Source: Planctomycetales bacterium (lineage in GTDB: Bacteria; Planctomycetota; Planctomycetia; Planctomycetales; Planctomycetaceae). Taken from it: a stretch of 37,241 nt of DNA. The stretch spans positions 1 to 37,241 of the forward strand of contig JAPLOA010000099.1 of the NCBI GenBank assembly GCA_026400835.1. The letters are read 5' to 3'. Of this stretch, positions 28,124 through 29,357 are shown in pieces (positions within the stretch are counted from its first letter, which is position 1; the number at the start of each line of letters is the position of its first letter). The notes under the pieces were generated by a model, which saw nothing but the letters and a program-made list of their open reading frames with translations, ran no database searches and was not told the origin of the DNA. The position numbers and the translations under genes are program-made.

Positions 28124-28257
28124 GAGAAATGATTGCCCCTGACAAAAGTCGTACTAGTCACCCGAGATTCAAACCGCCGCAACTGTTATCGCTGCGTTCG
28201 TCTCCGAACAATACTCGCCCCCAACACGACTGACCAGTCATCCTCCCCGTAGCCTAC

Positions 28258-28525
28258 GTAGCGTGGGCTTCAGCCCACTTGCATTGGCTGCCGTAGCCGA
28301 GTGCGATTCGCCGCGAATGCGGTGCCAGCGCCTAGCTGCGGGCTTCAGCCCACTTGTACTGCACTTGCCATTTCCCATTTGCGATTCACCGCGAACGCGG
28401 TGCCAGCGCGTAGCTGCGGGCTTCAGCCCGCAGTTGGCATTCACACAAACTCCCGGGCCGTGAATACGGCCCAAGCACCACAGGCTAAAGCCTGTGGCTA
28501 CGCGCTGGGCCCGTATTCACGGGCC
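28258..28525. repeat. REP cluster: units 1-4 of the two-hairpin family
   Basis: Several related units are packed here. Unit 1: GTAG (28258-28261) plus hairpin A GTGGGCTTCAGCCCAC (28263-28278). Unit 2: hairpin B CCGCGAATGCGG (28311-28322), linker TGCCAGCGCCTAG, hairpin A (28338-28353). Unit 3: hairpin B CCGCGAACGCGG (28389-28400), linker TGCCAGCGCGTAG, hairpin A (28414-28433, 8-bp stem). Unit 4: B (28455-28472), A (28478-28497), then CTAC and a reverse B (28508-28525). Hairpin A loops are TTCA or AA; hairpin B loops are GAA(T/C) or ATTC. GTAG directly 5' of a palindrome is the hallmark of REP sequences. The cluster lies in the 498-bp gap between asnB and the transposase; I see no gene in it. 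Confidence 0.85.
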
Positions 28526-28621
28526 AATCGCAGTTCGCTTGTGACGTACGATACACAATATTCTTTCCACCCTTCTGCCAGCCACCCCCGTGTTTCCTAA
28601 CGCGATTAGACCAAATTCCAC

Positions 28622-29086
28622 TCACCCATGATGTTCCGCCTCAAAGAGGTATCGCGGATCAAACGGGATATTGTGTCGAATCAACATTGCTCGATATTCG
28701 TCTTCAAAGGTTGTTTTCTTGTGATGGCTATCCTGCTGCTGAATGTAATTCTGGACCACTTCAACGTGCGAATAACTGACCGTGAATGCACAATATCCCT
28801 TTTGCCACTCGAAATGACGGGCAGCGAGTTTCTCCGCGTTCATCCACGTCGAAGAATTGCCCTTCAGTTCTCCAATCATTGCACTTACGCTGATCGTTGG
28901 CGGAAAGTGAGCCAGAATATGGATGTGGTCGGCAATTCCACCGATTTCAATGAGATGACCGGACTTTTCCCGGATGATGCCGCCAATGTATTTGTAGAGG
29001 CGTTCCTGAAATCCTGGCGTGATCAACGGACGACGGTACTTTGTGCCAAACACGACGTGGTATGTCAGTTTTGTGAATGAGCTCAT
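28622..29086 (-). CDS. tnpA: IS200/IS605-like Y1 (HUH) transposase
   Basis: A 154-aa single-domain HUH transposase. The HUH metal site is HIHILAH with His54 and His56, and the nucleophilic tyrosine is Tyr114 in VVQNYIQQQDSHH, with Gln118 and the His pair as in IS200/IS605 TnpA. The N-terminus (MSSFTKLTYHVVFGTKYRRP-) is typical. The protein cuts and joins single-stranded DNA at hairpin ends. I chose Met at 29086 because GGAGG lies 8-9 nt upstream; the open frame reaches 29146 through a hairpin. The gene is intact. The size and YI-x2-Q-x2-HH motif favour IS200-type TnpA over longer REP-associated RAYT proteins, but the flanking GTAG hairpins give it a RAYT-like setting. No tnpB is present. Confidence 0.92.
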   Translation of the reverse strand: MSSFTKLTYHVVFGTKYRRPLITPGFQERLYKYIGGIIREKSGHLIEIGGIADHIHILAHFPPTISVSAMIGELKGNSSTWMNAEKLAARHFEWQKGYCAFTVSYSHVEVVQNYIQQQDSHHKKTTFEDEYRAMLIRHNIPFDPRYLFEAEHHG

Positions 29087-29104
29087 TGAGGTGGACCTCC
29101 TCTG

Positions 29105-29189
29105 CCGCCGCATTCGCGGCGGAGACCCCACGAGGATGGAGACCACAGGCTAAAGCCTGTGGCTACGCGCTGAGCCCGTATTCACGGGC
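29105..29189. repeat. REP unit 5, upstream side of tnpA
   Basis: Hairpin B variant CCGCCGC-ATTC-GCGGCGG (29105-29122), then hairpin A CCACAGGCTAAAGCCTGTGG (29143-29162), CTAC (29163-29166) and reverse B GCCCGTATTCACGGGC (29174-29189). The first hairpin ends 5 nt upstream of the tnpA Shine-Dalgarno on the transcript, so it could influence translation of the transposase, as 5' hairpins do in IS200. The remaining 168 bp up to selO hold nothing I can name. Confidence 0.8.
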
Positions 29190-29357
29190 CAATCACAGTC
29201 AATTCAGTGGGAGGTGTAGCAAAGTTCACAGAGCAGATCAACGTTACCCTGAGGGTGGTGTTAATAATATCCCATGTTGCACGATAGCCGTGAAATCCTC
29301 ACCCGTCATTTCTGGACCTTCATGATCCAGCATACCGAAATCGAAATACCTCCCGCA

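Follow-up and report, generated by a model that had tools for sequence, protein, structure and literature searches.

A Y1 transposase gene in planctomycete DNA is surrounded by compound hairpin units that probably belong to a REPtron/REPIN-like system whose enzyme is not a RAYT but a Y1 transposase from the IS200 side (class 1, subclass 1.2). The units have a conserved anatomy, are placed mostly as inverted copies at the two ends of the gene, and recur as gene-less copies and as inverted pairs; such pairs differ in presence and absence between sister genomes. These observations were made in the window (the whole stretch of 37,241 nucleotides that was analysed), in the genome that contains it (own genome, G000), in two sister genomes (G132 and G131), and at related loci of other bacteria.

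Units and hairpins around tnpA

In the window, tnpA has a SelO gene on one side and an asparagine-synthase-like gene (asnB) on the other, and the repeats that accompany it are collected in Table 1. Three of them (U3, U4, and U5) share a common plan, consisting of hairpin B with a GAAT or GAAC loop, a linker ending in CAGCGC, the tag GTAG, and hairpin A, an 8-bp stem with a 4-nt loop. This B-linker-GTAG-A plan had been proposed in the initial annotation of the region and is borne out by the sequence, the ssDNA folds, and the model matches. Five related units had been counted at that stage; four B-A units are indeed there, one of them (U2) decayed, but the fifth is a foreign plain REP that has no hairpin B. 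Elsewhere in the own genome, a class-2 RAYT (L019) is surrounded by four REPs, three of which are identical to this plain REP.

Upstream of the gene, U5 has the same orientation as tnpA, and downstream the direct unit U4 lies between tnpA and the inverted U3. The same-orientation copies already recognized on both sides of tnpA are U4 and U5, which form 58-nt direct repeats with 97% identity. The pattern GTAGC(4-10)GGCTTnAGCC was found at 17 places in the 7.58-Mb own genome, compared with 1 for the reversed control; 3 of the 17 are in the window, and most of the other 14 represent a second B-linker-A family. The borders of the segment that holds all units and tnpA, which is inverted between two sister genomes, form an imperfect palindrome, TGACCAGT / ACCCGTCA.

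Table 1. Features around tnpA, in window positions; z scores of ssDNA folds were measured against dinucleotide shuffles.
Feature	Position	Strand	Sub-parts	Evidence
tnpA, 154 aa, Y1 HUH transposase	28622..29086	-		Pfam Y1_Tnp 1.7e-30; NCBIfam transpos_IS200; motif alignment; tree
U5, 5' of tnpA, tnpA-oriented	29142..29191	-	B 29173-29190; then linker; GTAG 29163-29166; A 29143-29162	model R2 E 9e-10 (U5 in training set); ssDNA fold z -5.7
Hairpin C of U5, CCGCCGC-GAAT-GCGGCGG, directly 5' of the tnpA start codon	29105..29122	-		comparable spacing in relatives
U4, 3' of tnpA, tnpA-oriented	28477..28526	-	B 28508-28525; GTAG 28498-28501; A 28478-28497	training unit; ssDNA fold z -6.3
Hairpin C of U4, GGGCCGTGAATACGGCCC	28455..28472			sequence
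U3, 3' of tnpA, inverted relative to the gene, as is usual downstream	28385..28434	+	B 28387-28402; GTAG 28410-28413; A 28414-28433	R2 E 2.6e-11, training unit; ssDNA fold z -4.2
U2, decayed copy, A stem broken	28301..28355	+	B 28309-28324; CTAG (not GTAG) 28332-28335	R2 E 4e-4; ssDNA fold z -0.56
Plain REP GTAGCGTGGGCTTCAGCCCACT, without hairpin B, not a B-A unit	28258..28279	+		type flanking the class-2 RAYT at L019
Segment with all units and tnpA	28239..29300	.		inverted at the orthologous asnB/SelO site of sister genome G132 (L037)

Family assignment of the transposase

The window TnpA has its HUH motif at D53-H54-I55-H56, followed by W94-Q95, Q118, H121-H122, and a C-terminal tail, and Y114 is presumed to be the catalytic tyrosine. 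When aligned, the motifs DHIH, WQ, and Y---Q--HH (NYIQQQDSHH), together with the C-terminal tail, correspond to the signature of Quentin subclass 1.2. The combination of DH[VIL]H, WQ, and Y---Q--HH is complete in 91 of the 97 TnpA rows, and 2 of the 6 exceptions are truncated or interrupted. The NCBIfam model transpos_IS200, with a cut-off of 55, gave 90.3 bits for the window TnpA and 73.5 for L002, the second subclass-1.2 TnpA of the own genome; the Bacteroidota homologue L038 scored 51.1 bits, slightly below the cut-off. No TnpB match was obtained among the five window proteins scanned.

The GTAG located 5' of a palindrome in some units, the inverted flanking units, the gene-less inverted doublets, and the WQ motif would all suit a window TnpA that belongs with the RAYTs (TnpA-REP, Quentin class 2) and is accompanied by its REPs. 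However, the Y---NP motif is absent from the window TnpA, and the NCBIfam model REP_Tyr_transpos (NF047646; cut-off 80) reported no match for it and only 32 for L002, while E. coli rayT scored above the cut-off and two RAYT-like proteins of the own genome matched below it. A tree of 108 rows separates subclass 1.2 together with IS200 from classes 2 and 3 at 99/98; the published subclass-1.2 sequences are not among these rows, five short or duplicate loci (L041, L190, L044, L072, and L037) were left out, long branches and an unknown root limit finer claims, and the tree takes no side on the order of subclasses 1.1 and 1.2 inside class 1. A fold search with an AlphaFold model (mean pLDDT 69, which served only to rank folds) returned IS608 TnpA first (9e-9) and the RAYT structure 4er8 at rank 30 (7.6e-4). 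Assignment to the RAYT family is ruled out by the tree and the motifs, and we regard this reading of the locus as extremely improbable.

Judged by its sequence, the window TnpA is an IS200-side (class 1) enzyme with subclass 1.2 motifs. The NCBIfam score, the tree, and the fold ranking agree on the IS200-type features that the initial annotation had attributed to it. The further suggestion of a system intermediate between IS200 and RAYT fits the anatomy of the locus but not the ancestry of its enzyme, which the tree places with class 1 (IS200) and not between the two families.

Two related loci deserve mention. The gene of L002 (C72:218019-218507) encodes the variant Y---Q--RH and has six compound units nearby, all six with the tag GATAG instead of GTAG. 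The locus L041, from a Parachlamydiaceae MAG, carries an apparently interrupted subclass-1.2-like TnpA that is 61-62% identical to the window TnpA, with an upstream unit at E 1e-8; it represents either a transfer or a mis-binned contig.

Structure and covariation of the compound unit

Among the 22 units of the training alignment, 91.9% of cells were paired, compared with 74.0% after shuffling, and both-sided changes were found in 10 of the 13 pairs. The held-out units (22, of which 21 are distinct, from 19 non-training loci) were picked with R2, which favours structure, and were aligned by sequence in alignment A4; 100% of their cells are paired in both helices, 7 of the 13 pairs changed on both sides, and the covariation score was 0.473 versus 0.143, with 0 of 500 shuffles reaching it. 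Pairing at B in alignment A2 is 79.8% because B slips out of register there, with a 3- or 4-nt loop, a fault that is absent from A4.

The tags of the 22 held-out units are AAAG in 7, GTAG in 6, ATAG in 4, TTAG in 2, and CTAG, GTTG, and GTAA in 1 each, so that positions 3-4 are A and G in 20 of 22 and positions 1-2 vary. The constant GTAG of the A2 training units is a product of construction, because a GT[AG]G filter was used to choose these units. GTAG, which the initial annotation had named as the REP hallmark of RAYT systems, is not a hallmark of the present family; among the held-out units, the AG of the tag is the nearly constant part.

A third hairpin, C, was sought in 58 of the 165 R2 matches, 55 of which had enough flank, and was present in 48 of these 55 units, compared with 13 of 55 control windows located 150 nt further on. 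It begins 21-26 nt past A in 43 of the 48 units and is followed by GACAG in 15 and by GGCAG in 5 of them. B and C have the same inner 4 bp in only 21 of 46 units. The initial annotation had described B as a second conserved hairpin and had named a lack of covariation in it as grounds for abandoning the reading; B is conserved and covaries in training and held-out units alike, and what had been overlooked is hairpin C, usually 21-26 nt 3' of A.

Units beside tnpA as a trait of the family

Of the 170 genomes of one planctomycete order, 84 contain TnpA homologues at E<=1e-10; the homologues are scarce, with 1-9 per genome among the genomes having any, and only the best-scoring of these matches (30 and a further 60) were taken into the TnpA loci studied here. 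A unit lies within 700 nt of tnpA in 48 of 94 loci, and on both sides in 34 of 94 (R2, E<=0.0012). The count excludes L041, which is interrupted, the window's own locus L043, and L044, the same locus as L037. Among the loci from which no unit went into the model, the corresponding figures are 34 of 80 and 23 of 80, or 35 and 24 of 81 before the removal of L037, since L037 and training locus L044 are one locus. Upstream, the closest unit is oriented like the gene in 33 of 45 cases (other orientation, 12 of 45); downstream, it is inverted in 32 of 37 (other orientation, 5 of 37), at median distances from the gene of 67 nt upstream and 51 nt downstream. These oriented units flanking the gene support the earlier proposal of a REP-generating arrangement with an IS200-type transposase.

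A model-free comparison of flanks points in the same direction. In 47 of 91 loci, the resemblance of the upstream flank to the reverse-complemented downstream flank exceeds the 99% level set by pairs from different loci; among these are 21 of the 45 loci without an R2 match. Direct flank repeats exceed the 99% null in 18 of 91 (the test was run without L041, L043, L044, L190, and rows with short flanks). Perfect stems of at least 6 bp were found 50-120 nt from the gene in 44 of 93 upstream and 39 of 91 downstream flanks, compared with 17 of 89 and 5 of 85, respectively, at 450-520 nt. In the first 50 nt beside the gene, an excess of such stems (>=6 bp) is absent, with 10 of 93 and 10 of 91. 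The model R2 covers only part of the subclass, because 46 of the 94 loci are without an R2 unit.

In table 1 of Quentin et al. 2018 (PMC6006769), subclass 1.2 is listed as REP "no" and as found mainly in Cyanobacteria and Bacteroidetes. This "no REPs" feature appears incomplete, because units lie close to tnpA in the 48 loci counted above.

Copies away from the gene

The window model (R1) gave 41 matches in the own genome at E<=1 (150 candidates scored), and 35 of them are more than 3 kb from both subclass-1.2 genes. At E<=0.01, 16 of 21 matches are outside the window, L084 and L088 being, by eye, another REP type. Seven gene-less pairs in this genome lie on opposite strands and 168-171 bp apart, and an eighth pair overlaps. 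In G085, nine gene-less pairs on nine contigs are 142-143 bp apart. Such gene-less, dispersed, inverted pairs, with tags pointing outward and in many copies, have the arrangement of REPINs and also resemble MITEs.

Four genomes selected for a recount from those with many units, G129, G013, G083, and G085, contain 59, 42, 39, and 36 units and 3, 4, 5, and 2 TnpA homologues, respectively. The count away from tnpA proposed in the initial annotation thus stands at 36-59 units for 2-5 homologues in these unit-rich genomes, and the copies are scattered away from tnpA, not confined to its ends as would have spoken for abandoning the reading. Across the 170 genomes of the order, TnpA and units occur together in 63, TnpA only in 21, units only in 20, and neither in 66 (Fisher 8e-12, kinship ignored), and the median number of units per genome is 7 with TnpA and 0 without it (best <=35 candidates scored per genome). 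Within the phylum, units at E<=1e-4 were detected in 36 of 199 sampled genomes.

The hairpins might instead be terminators or RNA elements that lie by chance beside tnpA and other genes, given their intergenic position and the location of C near the ribosome-binding region; hairpins next to IS200 genes can regulate translation. We consider this very improbable in view of the tight, oriented spacing on both sides of tnpA, the constant spacing of the gene-less pairs in G085 and in the own genome, and the Rfam search, in which no family reached the gathering score and the two matches obtained were both far below it.

More weight, at the level of an unlikely explanation, goes to an insertion sequence of the IS200 group that is ordinary but poorly catalogued and has clusters of hairpins as its ends. 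The scattered units would then be its dead ends and its deletion derivatives, similar to MITEs, and no domestication of the REP type would have taken place. The IS200-side position of TnpA in NCBIfam, tree, and fold is in keeping with such an element, as are the direct repeats on both sides of the window tnpA. The end units of L045, whose TnpA is 63-64% identical to the window TnpA, are matched by the gene-less pairs of the own genome, as though tnpA had been lost, and some pairs of G085 and G013 lie inside 14-18-nt inverted repeats that an exact pattern did not find empty (0 of 4 genomes), like transposon tips. However, known IS200/IS605 elements are described as having no terminal inverted repeats (PMC2817692), whereas the tagged ends here are mostly inverted; in addition, TnpA homologues are few and the units far outnumber them in the recounted genomes. 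We retain a REPtron/REPIN-like system as the preferred reading.

Several further observations concern the surroundings of the dispersed copies. Some gene-less pairs of G085 and G013, which belong to two genera, are enclosed by a 14-18-nt inverted repeat of about TTTTGAAGTTGCRCACTT (L107, L201, L212, L216, L200, L204, L213, and L217). As an insertion target, this repeat was rejected, an empty palindrome (exact pattern, gap 0-30) being found in 0 of 4 genomes, and the inverted repeats are more likely the tips of an element. In the own genome, L084, L088, and L094 contain another palindromic repeat, with a core like GTAGCCGGTGGTCAGCG / CGCTGACCACCGG, beside a B-like hairpin, which at L094 is GATTCACCGCGAAGCGGT. 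At L026, L027, L028, L034, L036, and L089, contig ends break within repeats and all continue with ttaggtttaggcacat..., a shared continuation that is probably an assembly artefact.

Presence, absence, and turnover in sister genomes

At the asnB/SelO site, G132 carries the inverted form of the segment that holds tnpA and the units, with U4 mostly lost and U3 in the position of the inverted downstream partner. The G131 site has only a decayed plain REP and is without the flank common to G000 and G132, a state that represents either loss or the ancestral condition.

Gene-less pairs also differ between these genomes. The L091 pair of G000 is present at the matching G132 site (94% over 1501 nt) and missing from G131, where flanks of 99% and 92% identity enclose another, 49-nt spacer; in the G131 contig C244, too, a left-flank copy of 91% identity leads into the beginning of this same 49-nt spacer. 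The L082 pair of G000 is likewise missing from G131, where flanks of 92% and 88% enclose about 320 nt of unrelated spacer without a unit. Neither of these two G131 sites is a precise empty site, both being imprecise in a fragmented assembly, and the comparisons show turnover of pairs, not precise insertion. The end of contig C114 and the start of C244 in G131 overlap by 671 nt at 92% identity, one of them being 99% like the own genome; the G131 assembly may mix strains or be a chimeric bin.

Other Y1 types and other phyla

The own genome also has Y1 genes of other types. Four of them (L015, L016, L018, and L019) are placed with class 2 in the tree, and each has its own plain GTAG repeat family, in which no hairpin B was seen by eye. 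When R2 was run on 13 own-genome loci of other Y1 types, it gave one borderline full-length match, at L019 (E 0.0069), and five partial matches to hairpin A only (E 0.055). Three more genes (L010, L013, and L017) form a separate tree group with NHVH and W[TA], and were assigned to class 3 from these motifs.

In Bacteroidota, the flanks of L038 and L040 present B, about 8 nt, ATAG or ATAA, A, 20-25 nt, and C; at L040, C adjoins the start codon and an inverted C is close to the stop codon, while a third locus, L039, has a decayed look. In Cnuella, the three-part pattern was found at 6 places, of which the tnpA locus is one, compared with 0 for the control; in the L040 genome it was found at 2 places, one of which looks genuine. 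In a Chloroflexota MAG, L042 encodes a distant TnpA homologue with long inverted hairpin clusters of different sequence on both sides.

There is also a broader proposal, on which we remain evenly divided: that REP/REPIN-like populations had a second origin, on the IS200 side, and that the subclass-1.2 TnpAs of Planctomycetes, Bacteroidota, and possibly Chloroflexota retain B-tag-A-C units as the dispersed repeats cognate to them, B and C adding a module for recognition or landing.

Proposed mechanism and significance

In the REPtron/REPIN-like reading, the repeat is a compound ssDNA unit made of B, a linker with the core CAGC, a 4-nt tag ending in AG, A, 21-26 nt, and C, where C resembles B and often has a similar tail (GACAG). 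TnpA is predicted to bind hairpin A on one strand, and the tag would serve as a guide that selects the cut. For the GTAG of REPs, A and G have been proposed to select a CT cut (PMC8266576); by analogy, the AG of the present tags may pick CT. Hairpins B and C could be equivalent landing or cutting modules that flank A, and TnpA, acting in trans, may have spread the units and the inverted pairs.

A class-1 enzyme with REP-like populations of its own would provide a comparison independent of the RAYTs, on which the cited REP work centres, and bears on the origin of REPs from insertion sequences. It would allow traits of domestication, such as inverted ends, low copy number, and mobilisation in trans, to be told from RAYT ancestry. 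In addition, a TnpA subclass listed without REPs gains a family model and a defined DNA substrate.

Comparison with known systems

RAYTs have been defined by their inverted flanking REPs (Nunvar et al. 2010, PMC2817692), and Di Nocera et al. 2013 (PMC3733652) report GTAG repeats from Planctomycetes and, in R. baltica, many genes of tyrosine transposases that have repeats in their flanks. Some repeats of the present family may already have been counted in the planctomycete data of the latter study. Among the titles and opening lines of abstracts covered by our literature search, whose scope did not include subscription papers and ISfinder, no description of subclass-1.2 units was found.

The class-3 transposases of Planctomycetes and Acidobacteria share with the present system the host phylum, a class-1-like Y motif, and dispersed atypical structures, and are called possible intermediates with a CnGA foot in PMC6006769. 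In contrast to the window TnpA, they form a separate tree group and have NHVH and W[TA]. Published subclass 1.2, as characterized in the same paper (PMC6006769), agrees in DH[IV]H, WQ, Y---Q--HH, the C-terminal domain, and low copy number; the difference is that the genes studied here are common in one planctomycete order and that about half of the loci have structured units, which are also dispersed.

With IS200/IS605 elements (subclass 1.1; IS608, ISDra2, and IS200), the system has in common its ancestry, the HUH/Y/Q+4 residues, the fold, and ssDNA hairpins at the ends. It differs in that its ends are mostly inverted copies of one compound unit, in the C-terminal tail, in units that outnumber genes in the recounted genomes, and in its SelO and asparagine-synthase-like neighbours. 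The IS200/IS605 pattern of hairpins without terminal inverted repeats does not describe the 47 of 91 loci with inverted flanks, a feature that the other 44 do not have.

The closest resemblance in organization is to the REPtron/REPIN systems of RAYTs in E. coli (rayT), Stenotrophomonas, and Pseudomonas, which likewise consist of a low-copy Y1 HUH gene flanked by inverted tagged palindromes, with scattered single units, gene-less inverted doublets, and a tag at the 5' foot of the hairpin. Here, however, the TnpA is of class 1, with Y---Q--HH instead of Y---NP, the additional hairpins B and C are conserved, and the tag varies (NTAG, AAAG) around a nearly constant AG.
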